Shown: piece after piece, positions 7,337 to 60,128 of the stretch
Numbering within the stretch: position 1 is the stretch's first letter
Layout of the letters: every line of letters begins with the position of its first letter
Assembly: GCA_016929595.1 (NCBI GenBank)
Contig: JAFGIN010000134.1
Span: 1 to 62,952 of the forward strand
DNA from: Chitinispirillaceae bacterium
GTDB lineage: Bacteria; Fibrobacterota; Chitinivibrionia; Chitinivibrionales; Chitinispirillaceae
Length of the DNA stretch: 62,952 nt
Direction: 5' to 3'
The notes under the pieces: model-generated
Database searches by the model: none
Told to the model about the DNA's origin: nothing
Seen by the model: only the letters and a program-made list of their open reading frames with translations
Translations under genes and position numbers: made by a program

Positions 7337-8404
7337 TCAGAGATTCACTATCCTTCGCTCGATCTCAGAACCAACCTCACTGGTTGAACTGTTGCCACCT
7401 AGATCCCTTGATAGGATCGTACCTTCTGACAGGTATGCTGCAATGACATTTTCGATCAGAGATGAGGCTTCAGTTTCTCCCAGAAAATCCATCATCATTG
7501 CAGCACTTCTTATAGCAGCGACAGGATTGGCAATTCCTTTACCGGCGATATCAGGAGCAGAACCATGTACCGGCTCAAAAAGTGAAGGAAATTTACGTTC
7601 AGGGTTCAGGTTGGAACTTGGGGCCAGGCCAATGCTTCCTGCGATTGCTCCCGTAAGGTCGCTGATTATATCGCCGAACATGTTTGAACACACTATCACA
7701 TCAAAAATCTGCGGTTTCTGAACAAGCGCCATGCACATTGCATCAACATGATATTTATCAGCTTTAACATCCGGGTAATCTTTCCGGACTATATCAAGTA
7801 TCTGGTCCCAGAACACCATACTGAATTTCAGCGCATTGGATTTGGTAACCAGGGTAAGATGTTTGTCGGAGCGCTTGCGGGCGACTTCAAACCCAAAGCG
7901 GATTATGCGTTCAACCCCTTTGCGTGTGTGAATTGCAGTCTGCAATGCAGCTCCATCGCTGGTCTCAATTTTAAACAGTCCGCCGGCATCAACATATTCG
8001 CCTTCGGAATTTTCTCTGATTACAAGCAGGTCTATGTCCTCTGGTTTCATATTTGCAAGAGGGCAGTTTACACCATGAAACAATTTTGCCGGACGGATAC
8101 ATGCATATTGGTCGAATTTTTGACGCATTTCGATAAGCGGAATCAGCGTGATATGATCAGGTACATTAGCCGGGTCACCTACTGCACCAAGATAGATAGC
8201 TGAAAAATCGTTTAGAACTTTAAGATAATCATCAGGGACGACCTTGCCATGCTCTTTCCAATACCGATGTCCCCAGGGAAACTGGACGAGGTCAAGACTG
8301 AATCCAAACTTATGAGCAATTGCTGTAAGGATTTTAACCGCTTCAGCAGTTACCTCGATACCGATACCATCTCCAGCGTAAACTGCGATTGTATATTTTG
8401 CCAT
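7337..8404 (-). CDS. Beta-decarboxylating dehydrogenase (tartrate/D-malate/isopropylmalate dehydrogenase family)
   Basis: 355 residues, the normal size for the NAD-dependent isocitrate/isopropylmalate dehydrogenase superfamily. Visible features are YAGDGIGIEVTAEAVK at the N terminus, the substrate-site segment VIRENSEGEY, the metal-binding aspartates around MFGDIISDLTG, and the cofactor-region motif FEPVHGSAPDIAGKGIANP. The QYACIRP-type loop and RENSEGEY are closer to tartrate/D-malate dehydrogenases than to LeuB, but substrate cannot be fixed from sequence. The start has a good Shine-Dalgarno (aaagga). It begins 25 bases after the hypC-hydE fusion gene on the same strand, so it is probably the last gene of the hydrogenase operon. 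It may supply reductant or CO2-linked carbon flow; this is inference. Confidence 0.85.
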   Translation of the reverse strand: MAKYTIAVYAGDGIGIEVTAEAVKILTAIAHKFGFSLDLVQFPWGHRYWKEHGKVVPDDYLKVLNDFSAIYLGAVGDPANVPDHITLIPLIEMRQKFDQYACIRPAKLFHGVNCPLANMKPEDIDLLVIRENSEGEYVDAGGLFKIETSDGAALQTAIHTRKGVERIIRFGFEVARKRSDKHLTLVTKSNALKFSMVFWDQILDIVRKDYPDVKADKYHVDAMCMALVQKPQIFDVIVCSNMFGDIISDLTGAIAGSIGLAPSSNLNPERKFPSLFEPVHGSAPDIAGKGIANPVAAIRSAAMMMDFLGETEASSLIENVIAAYLSEGTILSRDLGGNSSTSEVGSEIERRIVNL

Positions 8405-8429: not shown

Positions 8430-9725
8430 CTATTTAACAGATAAATCAGTAGGAGCACGACCAAGCGTCATAAGCAACTTGATGGTGTCGTCAATCTGTT
8501 GCGGGATGGTTTCATTATCATGAGCCCGATTGGGATAGAGCGAATAGAATTTGCGATACGACAGAGGAGTCGCATTGAGCATAACCGAACTTGCTCCGGC
8601 TTTAAGACCTTTGATCCGTGCATTACCACTGATAGTTTCAAATGCGGTGGTAACAAGAACCTTTGCATCATGATGTGCAATAATTCTGGCAATAGCAATG
8701 ACTTTGAGCATCGTTTCCTCATCAACTGACGGGTTCTGCCTGAGAGGTGTTTCCGGATGGGAGATAAAAGGCCCAAAACTCATCATTTCAGCATGTAAAT
8801 CTGAAGTTAGCTTAATATCATTCAGGATATCATTACTGCTTTGTCCGGGAATACCGATAAGACTACCGGTTGTCACGAGATACCCAAGTCTGTATGCTTC
8901 ACGAATCTCACGTACCCTTTTTTCGAGACTTCTACCGGGACAGACTTTACTGTAAAGGTCAGGGTTAGAGGTCTCGAAACGCATCAGGATCGCGCGTGCT
9001 CCCGCCTCATAAAGTGCCTTCAACCCTTCAAAACCGACCTCTCCGAAGCTTATACAAATGAGAGACGGATAATTTTTTTTAATCGTTTTTACGATGTCCA
9101 CAAGTTCTTCTACAGAATAAGCACCTTCACCGCTTTGTAACACCAGAGATTTGAATCCGTATTCGACAGCTGTCTGCTTTACCGCAGCCATGATTTCATC
9201 TTTATTCATGCGATACCGGGTGATCGAGGTGTTGTGTGTCGATATCCCGCAATAAGCACAGTCGTTTTTACAAATGTTCGAGAGTTCTATTATGCCATGG
9301 ACACAACAGGAGTTATCATGATTTCTCTGACGAAGGTGGTTTGCAGTCTGATACAGCAGTTCCACATTAGGTTCGCCTGACATACTCAGGAGTTCGAGTA
9401 TCTCGGAGTCCGCGATCGCAGCACCTTCAAGTGCAGACTGAAGAATCGATTTTTTGTGTGAGTCGGGAAATTCACTGAAGTTAATCGTGGCAGTGGACGC
9501 ATCAATGCTTTTCAGTTCGAAAAACAGGTCTTTCCATGTCTCGAGGATGTTGCTGGCTTCAACTGGTGTGATTTTCTCGATGACATAACCACCCTGAGCA
9601 TAAACAAAATCACCGATTTCAAGGTTTCTGAGCTCATTTATCGCCTTTTTTTCTTCACCATAGTATTCGACAATGACATGTTTGCCATCGATAGATTTAA
9701 TTCTGCCAGGGAGAGCATAACACAT
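8430..9725 (-). CDS. HypC-HydE fusion: [NiFe]-hydrogenase chaperone domain joined to a HydE-type radical SAM domain
   Basis: 431 residues. Residues 1-75 match HypC/HupF chaperones: the essential Cys2 (MCYALPGRI), the V-x-E-Y-Y-G-E strand and the L-x-x-G-D-(F/Y)-V-x-A-x-x-G-Y region. From about 85 to 431 it matches the [FeFe]-hydrogenase maturase HydE/PylB-like radical SAM family: C152-x3-C156-x2-C159 within ELSNICKNDCAYCGI, then RYRM, LQSGEGAY and a C-terminal ISGNARIKGLKAGA segment. Each half is about full length (HypC about 75, HydE about 350). It lies between hypA and the dehydrogenase in the hydrogenase operon. HypC normally carries Fe(CN)2CO with HypD; HydE acts in H-cluster assembly. 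No [FeFe] hydrogenase, HydF or HydG is in the window. The joined function is unknown. Confidence 0.88.
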   Translation of the reverse strand: MCYALPGRIKSIDGKHVIVEYYGEEKKAINELRNLEIGDFVYAQGGYVIEKITPVEASNILETWKDLFFELKSIDASTATINFSEFPDSHKKSILQSALEGAAIADSEILELLSMSGEPNVELLYQTANHLRQRNHDNSCCVHGIIELSNICKNDCAYCGISTHNTSITRYRMNKDEIMAAVKQTAVEYGFKSLVLQSGEGAYSVEELVDIVKTIKKNYPSLICISFGEVGFEGLKALYEAGARAILMRFETSNPDLYSKVCPGRSLEKRVREIREAYRLGYLVTTGSLIGIPGQSSNDILNDIKLTSDLHAEMMSFGPFISHPETPLRQNPSVDEETMLKVIAIARIIAHHDAKVLVTTAFETISGNARIKGLKAGASSVMLNATPLSYRKFYSLYPNRAHDNETIPQQIDDTIKLLMTLGRAPTDLSVK

Positions 9726-9761: not shown

Positions 9762-10094
9762 TTATTCCGACTCAATACTTTCGAGGAAAAATTCTTTGCC
9801 GCTCTGAAGCGAAAGTGATGTACTGGAGCAGGATGGACAAATGAATTTTCTTTCGGGGTCTTCAAAAACAACAGAGCAATCTTTACATTGAAGTTTTGGC
9901 AGGTAATGCTTAATTTCAAGTACTGCACCCTCAAGCGGAGTTCCTGGTGTCATCTGATCGAAATATAGCCCGATAGAAACATCATCAAATCCCACCAGTT
10001 CACCAAGACCGAAACGTATCTTTGTCACTTTTTTTGTACCGGCTTTTTCAACAGCCTGATTAACAAGGTTTTGAACTGCGTGATGCTCATGCAT
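9762..10094 (-). CDS. hypA: Hydrogenase nickel-insertion protein HypA
   Basis: 110 residues, the typical HypA length. It begins M-H-E-H-H (the N-terminal Met-His of HypA coordinates nickel, and the usual form is MHE) and has the structural zinc site as two CxxC pairs: LQCKDCSVVF and FICPSCSS. HypA delivers nickel to the large subunit of [NiFe] hydrogenases, with HypB, which is not in the window. The start overlaps the end of the upstream ferredoxin-like subunit gene by 8 bases, so it is translationally coupled to the structural genes. Its presence supports a true nickel-containing enzyme rather than complex I. Confidence 0.93.
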   Translation of the reverse strand: MHEHHAVQNLVNQAVEKAGTKKVTKIRFGLGELVGFDDVSIGLYFDQMTPGTPLEGAVLEIKHYLPKLQCKDCSVVFEDPERKFICPSCSSTSLSLQSGKEFFLESIESE

Positions 10095-10422
10095 TGTAGG
10101 TATCTTCCTTTTTAGTTACATCTGGAGTGTAATATTTAGTATCGAGTTTAAGCGAATTTTTCGGGCATGCATCAACACAAGCACCACAGGAGATGCACTG
10201 CATTCTCTTTATGGACCATTTCTTTTCGGCTCGTACAACAGTAATTGCAGCAGTAGGGCATTTCCGCTGGCACAGACCGCAGAAGATACATGTTGAAGTG
10301 TCAATGACTACCTGACCACGTGAACCCTCTGGATACTCACGGGGTTCGAAAGGAAACTTAACTGTTGCCGGTTTTGAAAAAAGATTTTTAACAAGCGTTT
10401 TCAGTATAACAAAAAAGTGCAT
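10087..10422 (-). CDS. echF: Ech-type hydrogenase 2x[4Fe-4S] ferredoxin subunit (EchF/NuoI-like)
   Basis: About 111 residues from the preferred ATG at 10422, which is preceded by gagaga; an upstream in-frame start at 10449 would run into the large-subunit gene. Two [4Fe-4S] motifs are clear: CIFCGLCQRKCP and CISCGACVDACP. This subunit passes electrons from ferredoxin to the small subunit in Ech-type group 4 hydrogenases, and corresponds to NuoI of complex I. It starts two bases after the stop of the large subunit gene and overlaps hypA at its end. Confidence 0.9.
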   Translation of the reverse strand: MHFFVILKTLVKNLFSKPATVKFPFEPREYPEGSRGQVVIDTSTCIFCGLCQRKCPTAAITVVRAEKKWSIKRMQCISCGACVDACPKNSLKLDTKYYTPDVTKKEDTYNA

Positions 10423-10424
10423 GA

Positions 10425-11510
10425 TTATCTCTCTGTACAACTGATACAAGGATCAATAGTTAAGATTAATATTGGTACATCTGCCAGACTTGCACCAGGT
10501 AATATTTTAAGTAGTGGAGCAATATTGGCAAATGTTGGTGTTCGAACACGGACACGATCAAGGAATTTAGTTCCATTAGCTTTGATATAATAGACAGCCT
10601 CACCGCGCGGTTGCTCTGAGCGGGCGAAAAATTCACCATCAGGAGTTCCGCTTACTTTAATGTCAATTGGACCATCAACCATTTTTTCCGCAGCCTGCGC
10701 GATAATATCGATTGACTGAAAGAGCTCCTTTATACGAACGAGACAGCGTGCATAACTGTCACCGGTACTTTCGATAATGGGTTCAAATGCAATCTCTTTA
10801 TATGCTGCATAACCAAGCTTTCTCATATCAGAAGCGATACCACTGCCGCGTGCTGTTGGGCCCACAGCTCCTAATGCATAAGCCTGTTCTTTTGAAACAA
10901 CACCAACGCCGCAGAGACGGTGTTGTACGGATGCATCTTTGATAAAAACGTTTGAAAGTTCTTTTATCTCTTTCTCAAACACTTTAAGTCGTCGTACGAT
11001 TTCCTGCATTTTTTCTCTGGAAATATCGCGTCTGACTCCACCAACTTTAGAGGAACCGAAAATTACACGGCCCCCGGTGGTTTCCTCAATGATATCAAGG
11101 ATCCTTTCACGAAGACGCCAGCTTTGCATAAATAAAGATTCAAAACCGAAGGCGTCTGCCATCAGGCCAAGCCACAGCAAGTGACTGTGTAACCGTGACA
11201 GTTCACTCCATATTACTCTTAAAAAGTGGGCTCGCTGAGGAATGTTAAGTTTCATGATCTCTTCAACGGCTATACAGTATGTCATGCCATGAATAAAACT
11301 GCAGATACCACAGATTCTCTCCGCAACGTAAACATATTCTATAAAATCTTTTTTCTCAACGAGCTTTTCCAGTCCGCGGTGAATGAAACCAATCGAAGGA
11401 ATCGCTTCAACGATCTTTTCGTCTTCAAGAACCAGATCAAGATGAATTGGTTCGGGAAGTACCGGATGTTGAGGACCAAAGGGAATAATTGTACGCTTTT
11501 TACCTTCCAT
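10425..11510 (-). CDS. echE: Group 4 [NiFe] hydrogenase large (catalytic) subunit, EchE/NuoD-like
   Basis: 361 residues. Both nickel-binding pairs are present: ERICGICSFIHG (C67, C70, with H74) and DPCISCTER at the C terminus (C355, C358). Complex I NuoD lacks these cysteines, so this is a genuine hydrogenase. The protein ends right after the second motif, as in EchE and CooH, which have no cleaved C-terminal extension; a maturation endopeptidase is therefore not expected. It catalyses reversible proton reduction to H2 on the cytoplasmic face of the membrane complex. It follows the NuoC-like gene and precedes echF in the same operon. Confidence 0.95.
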   Translation of the reverse strand: MEGKKRTIIPFGPQHPVLPEPIHLDLVLEDEKIVEAIPSIGFIHRGLEKLVEKKDFIEYVYVAERICGICSFIHGMTYCIAVEEIMKLNIPQRAHFLRVIWSELSRLHSHLLWLGLMADAFGFESLFMQSWRLRERILDIIEETTGGRVIFGSSKVGGVRRDISREKMQEIVRRLKVFEKEIKELSNVFIKDASVQHRLCGVGVVSKEQAYALGAVGPTARGSGIASDMRKLGYAAYKEIAFEPIIESTGDSYARCLVRIKELFQSIDIIAQAAEKMVDGPIDIKVSGTPDGEFFARSEQPRGEAVYYIKANGTKFLDRVRVRTPTFANIAPLLKILPGASLADVPILILTIDPCISCTER

Positions 11511-11511
11511 A

Positions 11512-11871
11512 TTACGCCTTGTCAGTCGGTGGATTAAAAGGAGTCTTGAATGAAGTACGGTAAAACGTACCTTTGTAGTCGATAGCCATATTTTTTACTT
11601 CGACACCGAAGAGATCGTGCATCTCATTTTCGTAAAGGAGTGCCTGAAGATAGATCGCGCTCACACTATTAATGCGCAGATCGCTTAAAGGTAATATGAT
11701 ACGCAGATTGGTAAATGAGTAATTGTTATCAAAAGAATAGTTAACCTCGATCGTATCTGCGATCTTTGCACAGCAAATCTGTATCAGGCGATGACCGGAA
11801 TTTCTAAGTTTTTCTACTTGTGATACTAAATCATCGGCATTGATCGTGATCAGGCTCTGTTCATCAATCAT
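11512..11871 (-). CDS. echD: Ech-type hydrogenase NuoC-like subunit
   Basis: 119 residues. The C-terminal half has the NuoC/30-kDa signature around YENEMHDLFGVEV, followed by a Y-K-G-T-F-Y-R-T segment and a short tail; the N-terminal half is divergent, as is common in Ech-type EchD. It has no metal-binding motif and is a structural connector between catalytic and membrane parts. It begins three bases after the small-subunit/GNAT gene and ends immediately before echE. Assignment rests on the motif and on its place in the operon. Confidence 0.88.
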   Translation of the reverse strand: MIDEQSLITINADDLVSQVEKLRNSGHRLIQICCAKIADTIEVNYSFDNNYSFTNLRIILPLSDLRINSVSAIYLQALLYENEMHDLFGVEVKNMAIDYKGTFYRTSFKTPFNPPTDKA

Positions 11872-11874
11872 AAA

Positions 11875-12777
11875 TCAATCCTTTATATGTTTCTTTTCAA
11901 AGTGTATACGTTCTCTGCGTTCCGAGACCCTTTCTTTTTTGAACCAGGTGTATCCCTGGTGTTCGAAAAGATATATGTTACGTTTACTCTGGTGGCTGGT
12001 GTAAACCTGAAAAGATTCTGCTGTGTCAAAATGGTTCTCTACCGCCTGAAGGAGCTTTTTCCCAATACCAAGATTTTGATACACCGGGTTAACGGCAAGG
12101 CGACCAATATGGCAGATATCACCTTCCATCCGGGATCGGGCGATACCTACAATTGTATAATTCATTACGGCTTTAAAGAAGGTTCTGTTATTAAAATCTT
12201 CTTTAATTTCATCCATTGTTTGACGCAACGGTGACAGAGAAAAATCATTATAAATTTCAGCTTCACTTTGAAATGCAAGATGCTGTACATACAGTATTTC
12301 AGCCGCATCAGATATTTCAGCCTGTGTAATTGTCAATTCTTCAAGACCTTTTGTCATATTGCGGAGTTTCTTACGCTTCTCTTCAAGAATCCCCATTCCT
12401 TTGGCAACACCTTCAATGATAGCCTCGGGACGTGCGGCACAACCGGGGACGTACACATCAACAGGTAAAATTTTATCTACTCCACCAGAGACATTGTAGC
12501 ATTCTGCAAAGATACCTCCGGTACAGGCACATACACCCACCGCAACAACGACTTTGGGATCCGGCATCTGATTGTATATGTTTTGAATAATCTCTTTGTT
12601 TGCTTCGTTTACCGAACCGGTAACCAGAAATATGTCTGCATGCTTGGGATTTCCAACATTGATAATACCAAGCCGCTCTACATCGAATGTAGGCATCAGG
12701 CAGGCTAACACTTCTATATCGCAGCCGTTACAGCTGGATGCATCATAATGGACTACCCATGGTGATTTTTTTAACAT
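11875..12777 (-). CDS. echC: Hydrogenase small subunit (EchC/NuoB-like) fused to a GNAT acetyltransferase domain
   Basis: 300 residues, about twice the usual 140-150 for EchC. Residues 1-140 hold the proximal [4Fe-4S] site: C16 and C19 (SSCNGCD), C83 (VGVCACTGG) and C113 (PGCAARPEAI). From about 147 to 300 the sequence is a GNAT N-acetyltransferase: an N-terminal I-T-Q-A-E-I-S-D-A-A-E strand/helix, motif A GRLAVNPVYQNLGIGKKLL with the acetyl-CoA loop QNLGIG (234-239), and a C-terminal NIYLFEHQGYTWF motif B. The frame is continuous with no stop, and both flanking genes are tightly packed. It starts two bases after the NuoH-like gene. The acetyl acceptor is unknown; the domain could modify a partner or sense acetyl-CoA. 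The fusion is certain from this sequence, its meaning is not. Confidence 0.9.
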   Translation of the reverse strand: MLKKSPWVVHYDASSCNGCDIEVLACLMPTFDVERLGIINVGNPKHADIFLVTGSVNEANKEIIQNIYNQMPDPKVVVAVGVCACTGGIFAECYNVSGGVDKILPVDVYVPGCAARPEAIIEGVAKGMGILEEKRKKLRNMTKGLEELTITQAEISDAAEILYVQHLAFQSEAEIYNDFSLSPLRQTMDEIKEDFNNRTFFKAVMNYTIVGIARSRMEGDICHIGRLAVNPVYQNLGIGKKLLQAVENHFDTAESFQVYTSHQSKRNIYLFEHQGYTWFKKERVSERRERIHFEKKHIKD

Positions 12778-12779
12778 AG

Positions 12780-13634
12780 TTAATTTGCTAAAAAGGATAA
12801 AAGAATAATGTTACCAACTCCAAAAATCAATGCTATAAGCCAGGAGCTTGCAAAAGCCTTCTGCCATTTAACACGAGCAAAAGAGTTGTCTATTATAATC
12901 ATTAGGAAATATGCCGCTGCTGCTGCAAGAAGCCCGATAAGAATATTAGATGAAAAAAACAAAAAAACGATACCAAGAGCGATTGTCGTTTCATACCAGT
13001 GAGTTATTTCGATCATGGCAAGTGCTTTGCCGGAGAATTCTGTGGTGATTCCCTTTACAAGCTCCTGATGTGCATGATGAGAAGTGGAGAGATCAAAGGG
13101 GGATTTACGTAATTTAATGGGTAGAATAAACAGGTATGCTAAAACAATCCCGGCCAGTGGTATATATAACGGTTTATCACAAGTAAAAATAGTCATAATG
13201 TTGAAACTGTGAGCTACCATATACATCCCGATGGCAGAAAGCAGCACCGCTGGTTCATATGATGCTATCTGTATAAGCTCCCGTTGTGAACCGATAAAAC
13301 TGTACGGAGAACTGGCTTTAAAACCACCGAGAACGAAAAAAATGCTTGAAAGAGTAAGCGCAAAAATGACCAGGAGTATGTTTGCACCCCAGGCAAATAA
13401 CCCTGTGGTAAAAATGACAAGGATGAGTGAAAAAACAATATAAAAATTCTGGGATCTGCGTACAACCATGGTCTCTTTCTCGAAGAGTTTAAGCACATCA
13501 TAGAATGCCTGGAAGATCGATGGGCCAACTCGTCCCTGCAAACGTGCTGTTATTTTACGATCGATTCCGGCCATGAGGCCTCCAAGAAGCGGAGCGATAA
13601 TTACATATAGAACAACAAATAAAATTCTCAGCAT
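12780..13634 (-). CDS. echB: Ech-type hydrogenase membrane subunit, NuoH-like
   Basis: 284 residues with about eight hydrophobic segments. It carries the NuoH/HycD/EchB hallmarks: RKITARLQGRVGPSIFQAFYD near the N terminus, then KLFEKE, and in the middle SPFDLSTSHHAHQELVKGI followed by TEFSGKALAMIEITHW. This subunit anchors the peripheral arm and forms the entrance to the ion path (the ubiquinone-binding part in complex I). It overlaps the preceding NuoL-like gene by 7 bases. Confidence 0.93.
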   Translation of the reverse strand: MLRILFVVLYVIIAPLLGGLMAGIDRKITARLQGRVGPSIFQAFYDVLKLFEKETMVVRRSQNFYIVFSLILVIFTTGLFAWGANILLVIFALTLSSIFFVLGGFKASSPYSFIGSQRELIQIASYEPAVLLSAIGMYMVAHSFNIMTIFTCDKPLYIPLAGIVLAYLFILPIKLRKSPFDLSTSHHAHQELVKGITTEFSGKALAMIEITHWYETTIALGIVFLFFSSNILIGLLAAAAAYFLMIIIDNSFARVKWQKAFASSWLIALIFGVGNIILLSFLAN

Positions 13635-15508
13635 ACTGGCGACACCACTGAAATAAGAATTAGTATGGTACTCACTATGATGCCTGTAAGCAATAATTTT
13701 TTTTCATTAAAAAATTCCTGCATATAATAACTTGTCATATGCATCTGTTGTGAGGTGTTGAACGAATTATAAAAATCAATACCTTGCGGAGTGTTTGCAC
13801 CGGCAAGGTATGCATCGACAACTTTTACACTTTTTCCATACCTGAAAAAGCTTAAAGGAAATAAAGCAACCATCGCGAGCATTATCAACATGATTGTTAT
13901 ATTGCCATGTCCCATATCAACAGTACGATGGTAAATTTCTTCAATGTATGGTTCTACTAATGAATGTGCTACAAGAGGAAAAAAGCCGCAAACGCCGATT
14001 GTTAAAAGTGCCAGAGCACTCAATGAAAACCATTCAGTGCGGTGAACAGTTCCTTCGAGCTCGTCCTGTTTACCCACGACAGTCAGGAGACGCCCCATCC
14101 ATTTAACCCAGTATAATAAGGTCACTGATGAACCGAAGACGACAAATATCGCTAGTAGTGGATTGTAATCTACAAGCGCCTGCAAAACAGCCCATTTACT
14201 GATAAGCATTCCGAACGGTGCAAGAAACATTCCTGCCATTCCGATCTGCATCATAATGGATAATTTTGGCATGGTAATAATAAGACCTGCCATGTCTTCA
14301 ATGTTACGACTGTGAATTTTATGCTCAACAACACCGACACATAAAAATAGAAGACATTTGGCAACTGCATGAAAGATAATGAGCAGAATGGCAGCCCATA
14401 CTGCTTCATAGGTACCAAGGCCCGCACAGAGAACGATCAAACCGAGATTAGCAATTGTTGAATAGGCAAGAACCTTTTTCGCATCGCTCTGGCTGACTGC
14501 AATACATGAGCAGATAAAGAAGGTAACACCACCGACAAGTGCAATCATAAATCCGACTAATGTTCCTTCCAGAACACCGGCAAATCGTAAAATCAGATAA
14601 ACACCGGCCTTTACCATCGTGCTTGAATGCAATAACGCAGAAACCGGAGACGGTGCAACCATGGCCCCAAGCAGCCATTTTGAAAATGGTAACTGAGCAG
14701 ATTTCGTCAAACCGGCAAAACACATCAGCGCAACAGGCAGCAGAACGATTGCTTTTGGTGAAAACATAACTTTGTCAAGTTCAAGGATACCGACGCGGGT
14801 TTGAAGAAAGATAATTGCTGCTGCAAAGCCGATACCTCCAAGAAGGTTGAGCCGTAGCGCTAAAAATGCATTCCGTATCGATTCTGTTGTACCTTTATAA
14901 CCGATTAGAAGAAAAGAACTTACCGAGGTTATTTCCCAGAAGAAGTAGAGCCAGCGAAGATTGTTTGAAAAAACAATTCCGTACATCGCTCCCAGAAATG
15001 CGAAAACGACAAAAAAGAAAAAACAACGCTTATCCTTATATTCTTTATGATGCTGCTCATGAAATTCCCGCATATAGCCCAGAGAATAAATACTGATAAT
15101 TCCACCAACAATGCCAATTATCAATGCCATAACCACGGACAGACGATCCACAACAAACGAATGTTCTATTTCAATATGAGGACCTTTGAACTCAAACCAC
15201 AGGAGCGGTAATAGCTGGATTACTGCAAACAGCGTGACAAGCTTTTGTTTATTTCGTATTCCGGTGAATAACACATATAAGGAGAGTAAAATCTCAGCTG
15301 CAAGTATAGCATGATTTGTAAATTCCCATGGTACAGTCAGGAATTGCATGTCACTTTTGAAATATTCTGCCGCAAGAAATATTGAAGCTGCAGAGAGGAC
15401 AAAAAAGGAAGTGACCACTACTCCAAACCGTGCTGTGTTATTTTTAAGAAATAAAAGAATAATAGAAATGAGTAATGGAAATACTATTAAAAACAAAGGT
15501 GTAGACAT
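13628..15508 (-). CDS. echA: Ech-type hydrogenase ion-translocating membrane subunit, NuoL/EchA-like
   Basis: 626 residues, rich in transmembrane helices (about 14-16). The proton-antiporter core shows GRLSVVM-type start (VVDRLSVVMALIIGIVGG), WEITSVSSFLLIGY, the KSAQLPFSKWLLGAM segment containing the conserved lysine, and PSPVSALLHSSTMVKAGVYL. This is the Mrp/NuoL family subunit that pumps H+ or Na+. It is the first gene of the operon running down to 7337. No strong Shine-Dalgarno is visible before the ATG at 15508. Which ion is moved cannot be told from sequence. Confidence 0.93.
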   Translation of the reverse strand: MSTPLFLIVFPLLISIILLFLKNNTARFGVVVTSFFVLSAASIFLAAEYFKSDMQFLTVPWEFTNHAILAAEILLSLYVLFTGIRNKQKLVTLFAVIQLLPLLWFEFKGPHIEIEHSFVVDRLSVVMALIIGIVGGIISIYSLGYMREFHEQHHKEYKDKRCFFFFVVFAFLGAMYGIVFSNNLRWLYFFWEITSVSSFLLIGYKGTTESIRNAFLALRLNLLGGIGFAAAIIFLQTRVGILELDKVMFSPKAIVLLPVALMCFAGLTKSAQLPFSKWLLGAMVAPSPVSALLHSSTMVKAGVYLILRFAGVLEGTLVGFMIALVGGVTFFICSCIAVSQSDAKKVLAYSTIANLGLIVLCAGLGTYEAVWAAILLIIFHAVAKCLLFLCVGVVEHKIHSRNIEDMAGLIITMPKLSIMMQIGMAGMFLAPFGMLISKWAVLQALVDYNPLLAIFVVFGSSVTLLYWVKWMGRLLTVVGKQDELEGTVHRTEWFSLSALALLTIGVCGFFPLVAHSLVEPYIEEIYHRTVDMGHGNITIMLIMLAMVALFPLSFFRYGKSVKVVDAYLAGANTPQGIDFYNSFNTSQQMHMTSYYMQEFFNEKKLLLTGIIVSTILILISVVSPVC

Positions 15509-56583: not shown

Positions 56584-56625
56584 AGTAACTAAATAAATGT
56601 AACTTCTAAAATGGAGAAATCCCAG

Positions 56626-58386
56626 ATGTTTAACAAAGCAAAAATAGGTTCTAAACTTACGGGTGGATTTTTAATTGTTTCTATGATTGCAGCATTGATT
56701 GGAATTGTTGGCTTTGTAAATATCGTGGAAATTGGGGATCATCGCCTGCCGGGGGTACAATCGTTACTGATTATGCAGCAATCACAGAACAGGATACTGG
56801 CAGGTGAACGGGGTCTTCTTGTTTCAATGATATTCGAAAATCCTTCTCTGAGGAACGATCAATTTACATGGATGAAACTGGCTGGTGAAAGAGCTGCAGA
56901 AGCTTATGATGATTATGATAAACTTTCCAAAAACAGAGAAGAAATAAAAATATGGAACAAATTTGCCCAGCGCTGGGAGGCGTGGAAAGAAGTTGGTAAC
57001 GAGTTTATAACTGCGGCAAGAGCTAAAGAAACCGAAATGAATAAGGCAAATTCGAATGAGGAGCTTGTAAACACATTTGATAAGAATATGGATGTTGCGA
57101 GCATTGAATCACAAAAAGCGTTTCTTGCTGCAAGTGAGTTGCTTGACGAACTGGTACAACTCAATGCTGTCAGTGCACGAAATGCATCAAGAAATGCCAA
57201 AATTTTTATGGTCTCATTGATATTTATCGGAACAATCATCGCGTTTTCGATCGGTATATTTTTGACTCGCTCCATTACGAGGCCGCTGGCGAAGGTTGTA
57301 AAACTGATACAGGATGTTGGAAATGGACAGCTGGAGGTGACTATCGATATTGACCGTGAAGATGAGATCGGTATTCTGTCCAAAGCAATGCAGGATATGG
57401 TAAAACAGCTTAAAAATACAATAAGTTACGCATTCGAGGCATCACAGAATGTTTCAACCGGTAGTTTACAATTATCCTCTGCGGCACAAGGTATTTCACA
57501 GGGATCATCAAAGCAGGCTGCATCGGTTGAAGAGATAAGTTCTTCAATAGAAGAGATCTCTGCATCCATAGAGGAGATGACGGCATCGATCAATCAAAAC
57601 GCAGATAATGCAAACCAGACAGAAAAAATTGCTTTGAAATCATCTGTCGACGCAAAGGATGGCGGTGAAGCTGTACAGAAAACGGTGATTGCAATGAAAC
57701 AGATTGCCGAGAAGATCAGCATTGTACAGGAAATTGCGCGCCAGACGAATCTGCTATCACTTAATGCATCAATTGAAGCGGCACGGGCCGGTGAACATGG
57801 GAAAGGGTTTGCAGTTGTCGCATCTGCAGTTCAGAAACTTGCGGAAAGAAGTCAGGATGCTGCCGAAGAGATCAGTAAATTGTCAAAATCGAGTGTCGAT
57901 GTTGCAGAAACTGCTGGCGAGATGCTCAAAAAACTGGTTCCCGATATTCAGAAAACCTCAGAGTTAGTTTCAGAAATCAATGCAGCCAGTGCCGAACAGA
58001 ATAAGGGAATTCAGCAGGTCAATTCTGCGGTTCAGCAGGTCAATACTTCCATTCAACAGTTTAATCTTGTAGTCCAGTCAAATGCATCAGCATCAGAAGA
58101 GCTGGCGTCTACATCTGAAGAGCTTACTGCACAGGCTGATGAGTTGAAAAAACGTATTTCTTTCTTTCAAATTGAGAAACAGGTGTACACTCAACGTTAT
58201 GATGGGAATACCACCGGGCGACTTACTCAGGAATTATCGTACTCACATAGTAAACTGAATACGTTATCAGCTTCAATGCACAAAGAGAAAAACAGTCAAT
58301 TAGAAAAAGTGGAAAGAGAAGGAGATGTGATGAATGGAGTAGCAATAGACATGTCAGATGAGGATGAAAATTTTCAGAGAATATAA
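56626..58386 (+). CDS. Methyl-accepting chemotaxis protein 1
   Basis: 586 residues from ATG 56626, fixed by a GGAG nine bases before and by the matching start of the next MCP (MFNKAKIGSKL versus [11 protein letters not shown]). TM1 at about 10-30, a 4-helix-bundle-like sensor domain, TM2 at about 193-212, HAMP (RSITRPLAKVVKLIQDV), then the signalling domain with [20 protein letters not shown]. The C-terminal tail ends AIDMSDEDENFQRI. Confidence 0.95.
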   Translation: MFNKAKIGSKLTGGFLIVSMIAALIGIVGFVNIVEIGDHRLPGVQSLLIMQQSQNRILAGERGLLVSMIFENPSLRNDQFTWMKLAGERAAEAYDDYDKLSKNREEIKIWNKFAQRWEAWKEVGNEFITAARAKETEMNKANSNEELVNTFDKNMDVASIESQKAFLAASELLDELVQLNAVSARNASRNAKIFMVSLIFIGTIIAFSIGIFLTRSITRPLAKVVKLIQDVGNGQLEVTIDIDREDEIGILSKAMQDMVKQLKNTISYAFEASQNVSTGSLQLSSAAQGISQGSSKQAASVEEISSSIEEISASIEEMTASINQNADNANQTEKIALKSSVDAKDGGEAVQKTVIAMKQIAEKISIVQEIARQTNLLSLNASIEAARAGEHGKGFAVVASAVQKLAERSQDAAEEISKLSKSSVDVAETAGEMLKKLVPDIQKTSELVSEINAASAEQNKGIQQVNSAVQQVNTSIQQFNLVVQSNASASEELASTSEELTAQADELKKRISFFQIEKQVYTQRYDGNTTGRLTQELSYSHSKLNTLSASMHKEKNSQLEKVEREGDVMNGVAIDMSDEDENFQRI

Positions 58387-58418: not shown

Positions 58419-60128
58419 ATGCTTAATAAGATCAAAATTGGTCCAAAATTAATCTGTGGATTTCTTCTGGTTGCGGCTATTTCTGCAGTCGTTGGTTTTG
58501 TTGGTATAGGTAATATGAAAAAAATTAATGAGGCAGATACTTTTTTATATGAGAAAGCGACAATACCACTGGGGGATCTTGTTGAGATAGCGATGGCATT
58601 TGAGATGGCAATACGCGATCTGCGTGATCTGGGGCGTGCAACGGATCCTCAGGAACGTGAAGAGAAGATAAAAATCATCGAATCATTTCGTGCCAGATTG
58701 GGAAAGGCAAGCCAGAAATATGAAGAGACGATTGTAAATGATGAAGGGAAAAAACTTTTTGAAGAATTTATTAATGCCCGTACTATAATTGCGGCTGCCA
58801 TTGATGAACTTTACGTCCTGGCGCGGGCAAACAAAACTAAAGAAGTTTACGAAGTGATTGATAACCGGCTTGCAAGAAACAGTGAAACCGAAGAAAAGAT
58901 CATCGAAAGGATGATTGACTTTAATATCAGTTCAGCAAAAAAAATTGCAGATAATAATTCTAAGACTGCAAGTAATGCCACCAATATTCTATTTGTTGTT
59001 ATGGCTATAGGGGTTATAATCGCTATAGGGATTGGATTATTTCTTACTGCATCAATAACTAAGCCATTGAATCTCGGCGTCGAAACGATGGCTGAAATAT
59101 CTAAAGGGAATCTTCAGGTTACGTTTGACAGGCATGCATTGTCTGTTTCAGATGAGACCGGTATTTTCACCAGAGCTATGAAAGAGATGACAGATAAATT
59201 AAAGGATACTATCTCTTTTGCTCTTGAATCATCAGAAAACGTTTCTACCGGTAGTATTCAACTCTCATCTGCATCCCAGGGAATTTCTCAGGGGTCATCA
59301 GAACAGGCTGCATCAGTGGAAGAAATCTCTGCATCAATTGAAGAGATGACAGCTTCTATAAACCAGAACGCTGATAATGCGAATCAGACTGAAAAAATTG
59401 CCATAAAATCATCCAATGATGCCAAAGATGGTGGTGAGGCGGTACAGAAAACGGTTTCTGCAATGAAATCAATTGCCGAAAAAATATCAATAATTCAGGA
59501 AATCGCCCGCCAGACCAATCTTCTCTCTCTTAACGCTTCAATAGAAGCTGCGCGTGCAGGAGAACATGGAAAGGGATTTGCAGTGGTTGCATCTGCGGTA
59601 CAGAAACTTGCTGAACGAAGTCAGGATGCTGCGGAAGAGATCAGTAAACTCTCAAAAAGTAGCGTTGATGTAGCGGAAAAAGCGGGAGATATGCTTAACA
59701 AGCTTGTTCCTGATATTCAGAAGACAGCAGAGCTCGTTGCAGAAATCAATGCTGCAAGTTCAGAACAAAACAAGGGTATCCAGCAGGTAAATTCGGCGAT
59801 TCAGCAGTTTAACACGGTAGTCCAGTCTAATGCATCTGCATCTGAAGAGCTGGCCTCGACATCCGAAGAACTTTCTTCTCAGGCCGAAGAGTTGAAGAAC
59901 CGACTGTCGTTTTTTCAGATCGAGCAGAGGGGGTACAGAAAAGATAATAGAAAAAGTAACTCGCTTCGGAATCCACAAAAAAGCACCACGAGTGCCAACT
60001 CTTTTACTAATGATCACACCAGTCATTTTGGTACCCCGGCAATGGATGATGTCTCTGATACAGAAAAGAATGCTGGAATTGCCATTGATATGAATGATGA
60101 TGATGATAACAACTTTCAAAGAATGTAA
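58419..60128 (+). CDS. Methyl-accepting chemotaxis protein 2
   Basis: 569 residues, paralogue of the preceding MCP. TM1 at about 10-30, a four-helix-bundle sensor domain, TM2 at about 192-212, HAMP ([17 protein letters not shown]) and a signalling domain almost identical to MCP1 ([22 protein letters not shown]). It lacks the second hairpin-repeat insertion (QQVNTSIQ) seen in MCP1. The tail ends [15 protein letters not shown], matching MCP1. Sensor domains differ, so ligands probably do too. Confidence 0.95.

Follow-up and report, generated by a model that had tools for sequence, protein, structure and literature searches.

A candidate radical-SAM maturation pathway for [NiFe] hydrogenases built on HydG and a HypC-HydE fusion protein

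We analyzed a 62,952-nucleotide stretch of a Chitinispirillaceae (Fibrobacterota) genome (GenBank assembly GCA_016929595.1, contig JAFGIN010000134.1; here called the window), in which one gene encodes the [NiFe]-hydrogenase iron chaperone HypC fused to a HydE-type radical S-adenosylmethionine (SAM) enzyme. We consider it quite likely that this fusion acts with HydG in a radical-SAM pathway that matures [NiFe] hydrogenases in place of HypD, HypE, and HypF. With nearly the same confidence, we propose that it represents a second, radical-SAM route to the [NiFe] cofactor, present in about ten phyla including Omnitrophota and a lineage of the candidate phyla radiation, which draws on a tyrosine-derived HydG synthon and operates without HypD, HypE, or HypF. 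HydG converts tyrosine to CO and CN-, and its Fe(CO)2(CN)(Cys) synthon passes directly to HydE, where it is reduced by adenosylation (PMC12752695). In HypC, Cys2 binds Fe(CN)2CO, which HypC is believed to hand over to the large subunit unaided by HypD (PMC11565642, PMC12134894).

The fusion is encoded on the minus strand by an open reading frame (ORF) of 431 amino acids (positions 8430-9725) with no internal stop, while the plus strand across the same interval is broken by stops. Pfam HupF_HypC (PF01455) matched residues 1-64 over profile positions 1-65 of 65 (43.6 bits, E 3e-11); the TIGR00074 HypC model matched residues 1-72 at 35.3 bits, below its 48-bit cut-off. A helical linker joins the HypC domain (residues 1-72) to the HydE domain (residues ~100-431), within which Pfam placed Radical_SAM at residues 146-306 (E 7e-19) and BATS at residues 321-399. 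The top NCBIfam model was TIGR03956 (HydE) on residues 102-405, with 243.5 bits, just below the equivalog cut-off of 254.6 bits; two other fusions scored 237 and 239.5 bits, and a triple fusion described below scored 304.5 bits.

Structural evidence agrees with the HydE assignment. A sequence search of solved structures found the Thermotoga maritima HydE crystal structures nearest to the HydE part. An AlphaFold2 model of the fusion, built from 40 aligned sequences, had a mean local confidence (pLDDT) of 94 and a global template score (pTM) of 0.92, and its residues 84-429 superposed on HydE crystal structures with Z scores of 45-46.6 and a root mean square deviation of 1.7 A. Two of the superposed structures, 8qmk and 7o1o, contain bound complex-B, the product of HydG. 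The HypC domain was assigned by sequence, as the structure comparison covered model residues 85-431. A sequence-only reading of the window had proposed a continuous HypC-radical SAM frame within a [NiFe]-hydrogenase operon, with Cys2 and a C152-x3-C156-x2-C159 motif in place and a radical SAM part of the HydE type; the frame proved real, the residues are as described, and both the HydE-type fold and the operon context were borne out.

Residue conservation was read across 61 fusions selected by the start motif M[CS]Y.[ILV]P, which renders Met1, Tyr3, and Pro6 invariant by construction. All 61 retain Cys2 together with the three cysteines of the radical SAM motif. At the position of the canonical HypC histidine (H51 in E. 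coli HypC), every fusion has glutamine (Gln44, in the motif AQGG), whereas an ordinary HypC from a sister genome of the same family has VHSGY. His51 is thought to be used on the HypCD scaffold (PMC12134894). Its replacement in all 61 fusions fits a HypC domain that no longer works with HypD. By these residues, the N-terminal part is a HypC-type domain that departs from the scaffold-forming HypC.

Functional residues are also kept in the proteins that accompany the fusion. HydG needs its radical SAM motif, the histidine of GPHT, and CX2CX22C to form the Fe(CO)2(CN) unit, and the six HydGs that we read beside fusions keep the CxxxCxxC radical SAM motif, the GPHT histidine, and the C-terminal CX2CX22C. 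In the large subunit of [NiFe] hydrogenases, PRG and P[TS] hold the CN ligands. Large subunits found beside fusions and in the Omnitrophota genome G424 (see below) keep RxCGxC, DPCxxC, PRG, and P[TS] in 43 of 43 cases, a set that was picked by the same two CxxC motifs and does not count subunits cut by contig ends.

Gene content was compared across 11 genomes with a fusion. HypD (PF01924) was found in none of the 11, and neither HypE nor HypF scored above curated cut-offs in any of them; there are some distant carbamoyltransferase or AIRS-like matches. As positive controls, the sister genomes G010, G016, G025, and G032, subjected to identical searches, yielded HypE and HypF, and G010 and G025 also HypD. 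HydG was above the TIGR03955 cut-off in all 11. HydF exceeded its cut-off in four and came near it in a fifth (G168, where a HydG-HydE-HydF cluster was judged by position), and these same five genomes have an [FeFe] hydrogenase. The other six, assigned to Margulisiibacteriota, Scalindua, Omnitrophota, a Micrarchaeota metagenome-assembled genome (MAG), Nitrospirae, and Elusimicrobia, gave neither HydF nor an [FeFe] hydrogenase, and in all six HydG adjoins the fusion. In these six genomes, therefore, HydG and HypC-HydE most plausibly serve the [NiFe] enzyme. The window's own genome belongs to the other group: as the sequence-only reading had suggested looking for, it has hydF, hydG, and an [FeFe] hydrogenase, all in an [FeFe] operon that lies on a different contig and includes a separate HydE, and the HydG of that operon is the only one over the cut-off in the genome. 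Separately, a second HydG was observed in an Omnitrophota genome without HydF or [FeFe] hydrogenase (G172, contig C8, 10825-12243; locus L215).

A genome in one piece gave the same picture. G424 (Omnitrophota) is one contig of 1,275,236 bases with no second contig; some short stretches are masked. It encodes a group 4 [NiFe] operon whose large subunit carries RICGIC and DPCYCC, a HycI-type protease, short HypA-like proteins, and a HydG directly after the HypC-HydE gene. Searches of G424 by tblastn with two to three queries each did not find HypD, HypE, or HypF; the sole HypF-type match (1e-4) was confined to residues 1-81 of one HypF. Nor did tblastn find an [FeFe] HydA, or a HydF beyond a short GTPase-type match. 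Between families, the query proteins detect one another at 39-47% identity. With HypD, HypE, and HypF missing, the system looks like a replacement pathway and not an add-on.

Genomic neighborhoods tie the fusion to [NiFe] enzymes. Within the fetched flanks, [NiFe] large or small subunits occurred at 45 of 60 fusion loci versus 3 of 71 unfused HydE loci, and a HycI-type protease at 40 of 60 versus 0 of 71. HydF showed the reverse (0 of 60 versus 30 of 71). Fisher p values for [NiFe] subunits (3e-18) and HydF (3e-10) are too small because of related genomes in the counts. HydG was found at 37 fusion loci, always on the same strand and within 1 kb in 34, while [FeFe] HydA was found at two and HypD, HypE, or HypF at none. 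The fusion is not confined to the vicinity of [FeFe]-hydrogenase genes. Among the 15 loci without [NiFe] subunits, several contain parts of Ech or Mbh or are truncated where the contig ends. The [NiFe] enzymes near fusions belong to group 3b (sulfhydrogenase-like) or group 4; this domain order, for which the sequence-only reading had asked whether it tracks with group 4, thus goes with both groups.

One Omnitrophota genome carries the association a step further. In a group 4 [NiFe] operon of G255 (locus L242, 1501-4245), a 915-amino-acid ORF without a stop comprises HypC (residues 1-76), HydE (95-406), and HydG (444-913, 515.5 bits). The joining of all three in one ORF is a classical sign of parts that act in sequence.

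Two further features of fusion loci were observed. In L261 and L263 (Omnitrophota), an [FeFe] hydrogenase and HydG lie ~5-8 kb downstream of a group 3b [NiFe] operon and its fusion, which places both hydrogenase types within one cluster. Short HypA proteins (~80-95 amino acids) without the zinc-domain end of ordinary HypA occur beside fusions at L123 (8737-8997), L122 (2339-2623), L278, and L305 (G424).

The fusion is rare within the phylum of the window and recurs well beyond it. Among 168 genomes of the phylum, only the window's and G006, from another genus of the same family, carry it; the G006 copy is full length, 89% identical, and lies in the same operon. A scan of bacterial and archaeal genomes added at least nine full-length fusions at 41-53% identity from Falkowbacteria, Margulisiibacteriota, Brevinematales, Scalindua, Omnitrophota, a Micrarchaeota MAG, Nitrospirae, a Gammaproteobacteria MAG, and Elusimicrobia, and the phyla named here are a minimum. 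The taxonomic placement of the Micrarchaeota and Gammaproteobacteria bins may be wrong. Fusions stand apart from unfused HydE among the matches listed, with the former extending to 1e-110 and the first of the latter at 5e-70. In Omnitrophota, 59 of 384 genomes had a fusion-type match, as counted from the match list, and 50 of these fusion sequences were extracted and read. A plasmid collection yielded unfused HydE and other radical SAM proteins only, with no fusion.

The HydE domains of the fusions form a single clade beside HydE proper, with support in the Shimodaira-Hasegawa-like approximate likelihood ratio test (SH-aLRT) of 100 for 11 fusions and 98 for 27. In Omnitrophota operons of the window's type, EchE is 70-77% identical to the window's, and the Ech operon of this type has therefore probably moved between phyla. 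An unfused HydE at L140 (8977-11422; Parcubacteria GW2011_GWA2_38_13b) is sister to the fusion clade (support 99). HydG follows it, group 3b [NiFe] genes lie ~6 kb away, and there is no HypC in the locus. L140 may show the pathway in a form that preceded the fusion.

Gene content, fusions, motifs, operon context, and the absence of HypD, HypE, and HypF were observed and make a strong genomic case, and from them we infer each chemical step of the pathway. HydG would cleave tyrosine to CO and CN- and build the Fe(CO)2(CN)(Cys) synthon, as it is known to do in [FeFe] maturation. The HydE domain would take this synthon and strip or reduce it by radical-SAM chemistry, and so release the iron unit from the HydG cysteine. 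In keeping with the role of HypC elsewhere, the tethered HypC domain would then accept the iron unit on Cys2, dock on the apo large subunit, and deliver it, after which HypA would handle nickel. Tyrosine would be the source of both CO and CN-, and neither O2 nor carbamoyl phosphate would be needed. Where a genome also has an [FeFe] hydrogenase, as the window's does, the sole HydG is encoded within the [FeFe] operon and would serve both enzymes. The sequence-only reading had proposed that a radical SAM enzyme tethered to the iron chaperone could make or load a diatomic ligand without oxygen. Loading fits the pathway outlined here; ligand synthesis by the HydE domain is improbable, since HydG has that task in the [FeFe] system and is present in all 11 fusion genomes.

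Several points weigh against this pathway. HydG yields one CN per Fe versus two in the canonical [NiFe] site. Each site might consume two synthons and lose CO, which would provide the second CN, or it might be a non-canonical Fe(CO)2(CN) site. The conserved CN pocket of the large subunit favors two synthons with CO loss, and an Fe(CO)2(CN) unit might be left in the site of some enzymes. In addition, HydG is out of reach at ~23 of the 60 fusion loci, and the whole-genome test for HydG covered only 12 genomes. We looked for a dedicated clade of HydG and found none, as the fusion-adjacent HydGs scatter among other HydGs. Finally, most of the fusion genomes are MAGs.

The two-CN problem would be sidestepped if HydG supplied CO only. 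In such a scheme, undetectably divergent HypD, HypE, and HypF would still make Fe(CN)2CO, and HypC-HydE with HydG would merely add CO or protect an intermediate. The CO source in anaerobes is open (PMC12134894), and the distant carbamoyltransferase or AIRS-like matches are in line with this scheme. We nevertheless regard it as unlikely: three highly conserved proteins are all missing from the 11 genomes and from G424 while the controls detect them, and the histidine with which HypC acts together with HypD is lost in every fusion. 

The six fusion genomes without [FeFe] hydrogenase and HydF, the lack of HydF at all 60 fusion loci, and a separate HydE adjoining HydG and HydF in the window's genome also bear on a suggestion of the sequence-only reading, that the fusion is a bifunctional helper for both enzyme types. 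It would then serve the [FeFe] H-cluster pathway and link both systems by handing some of the iron synthon to [NiFe] enzymes. The fusion does belong to the HydE family, and 5 of 11 fusion genomes, the window's included, have [FeFe] hydrogenases, yet on balance we find a dual role improbable. Very improbable, in our judgment, is that the fusion and HydG make or repair another iron cofactor and are mere neighbors of [NiFe] genes. At a few loci (L127, L278), the flanks contain no [NiFe] gene, but [NiFe] subunits accompany three-quarters of the fusion loci, the HypC domain keeps Cys2, and in G424, where the [NiFe] operon lies elsewhere, no other HypC was found. An assembly or sequencing artifact that joined two genes, for which nothing speaks except the draft status of the window's genome, was rejected: the 89% identical full-length copy in G006, an independent genome, excludes a sequencing error, and the same fusion recurs full length, as one clade, in at least nine cases from other phyla.

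The radical-SAM pathway for [NiFe] enzymes, as proposed, combines elements of known systems. With HypABCDEF it shares a HypC domain with its essential Cys2, HypA, a HycI-type protease at many loci, and the same target large subunits with their Ni and Fe ligands intact; it differs in that HydG takes the place of HypD, HypE, and HypF in the fusion genomes tested, and in that its HypC is joined to a radical SAM enzyme and has Gln for His. With the HydEFG system of [FeFe] hydrogenases it shares a HydE-type domain and HydG, both with their cluster motifs, and the HydG product is plausibly its substrate. Unlike in that system, the fusion loci have no HydF, HydE bears a HypC domain, the enzyme to be matured is of the [NiFe] type, and six fusion genomes have no [FeFe] hydrogenase at all. 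The HypX route likewise provides the CO ligand for [NiFe] enzymes, but it derives CO from formyl-tetrahydrofolate, belongs to aerobic maturation, works with HypCD, and is not related to radical SAM enzymes. HmdB of [Fe] hydrogenase and other HydE-like maturases are from the same branch of the radical SAM superfamily; the HmdB model TIGR03957 gives the fusion 82.8 bits against a cut-off of 320.9, and HydE is far closer.

The component families are known, and we found no precedent for the pathway itself. A literature search, outside of which lay preprints and most subscription journals, returned no description of a HypC-HydE fusion or of a HydG serving [NiFe] enzymes. If the pathway is real, many anaerobes use HydG, hitherto a dedicated [FeFe] maturase, as a source of [NiFe] ligands. 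Two independently evolved hydrogenases would be tied to one organometallic precursor, uniting both maturation systems, and the operation of [NiFe] hydrogenases without HypD, HypE, and HypF in some lineages would be explained. It would also define a small gene set (HydG, HypC-HydE, and HypA) to test for making [NiFe] enzymes.

In the window, the fusion comes after HypA in a six-subunit Ech-type group 4 [NiFe]-hydrogenase operon, with the order A-B-C-D-E-F, HypA, fusion on one strand and with short gaps or overlaps (Table 1). The large subunit ends directly after its DPCISC motif, and its best solved relatives are P. furiosus Mbh (6cfw_L) and E. coli HycE (7z0s_E).

Table 1. Positions in the window of the HypC-HydE fusion, its domains and motifs, and the genes of its operon
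Feature	Position	Strand	Basis
HypC-HydE fusion coding sequence, 431 amino acids (aa)	8430..9725	-	ORF, Pfam and NCBIfam matches; 89% identical full-length copy in G006
HypC domain, aa 1-72; Cys2 codon 9720-9722	9510..9725	-	PF01455 aa 1-64, TIGR00074 aa 1-72
AQGG motif, aa 43-46; Gln44 at canonical HypC His position	9588..9599	-	61/61 fusions
HydE-type radical SAM domain, aa 100-431	8433..9428	-	TIGR03956 aa 102-405; T. maritima HydE fold match
Radical SAM cluster motif C152-x3-C156-x2-C159	9249..9272	-	Invariant in 61 fusions
HypA, nickel chaperone	9762..10094	-	PF01155, E 3e-22
EchF-like 2x[4Fe-4S] ferredoxin subunit	10087..10449	-	Fer4 and NuoI-type models
EchE-like [NiFe] large subunit, RICGIC and DPCISC, without C-terminal extension	10425..11510	-	Profiles, motifs
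EchD-like (NuoC-type) subunit	11512..11871	-	PF00329
EchC-like small subunit fused to GNAT acetyltransferase domain	11875..12777	-	PF01058, PF13673
EchB-like (NuoH-type) membrane subunit	12780..13634	-	PF00146
EchA-like (NuoL-type) antiporter subunit, first gene of the operon	13628..15508	-	PF00361, PF00662

The GNAT domain of the Ech small subunit was unexpected. It is C-terminal, starting from about residue 150, and the same EchC-GNAT fusion occurs in G006, at L294, and probably at L277 (loci listed: L038, L294, and L277), all of them adjoining HypC-HydE fusions. A tartrate/isopropylmalate-dehydrogenase-like gene (7337-8404, minus strand) lies 25 bases downstream of the HypC-HydE gene on the same strand and is probably not part of the system. 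Elsewhere in the window, a chemotaxis cluster holds two tandem, very similar chemoreceptor genes (56611-58386 and 58419-60128, plus strand).
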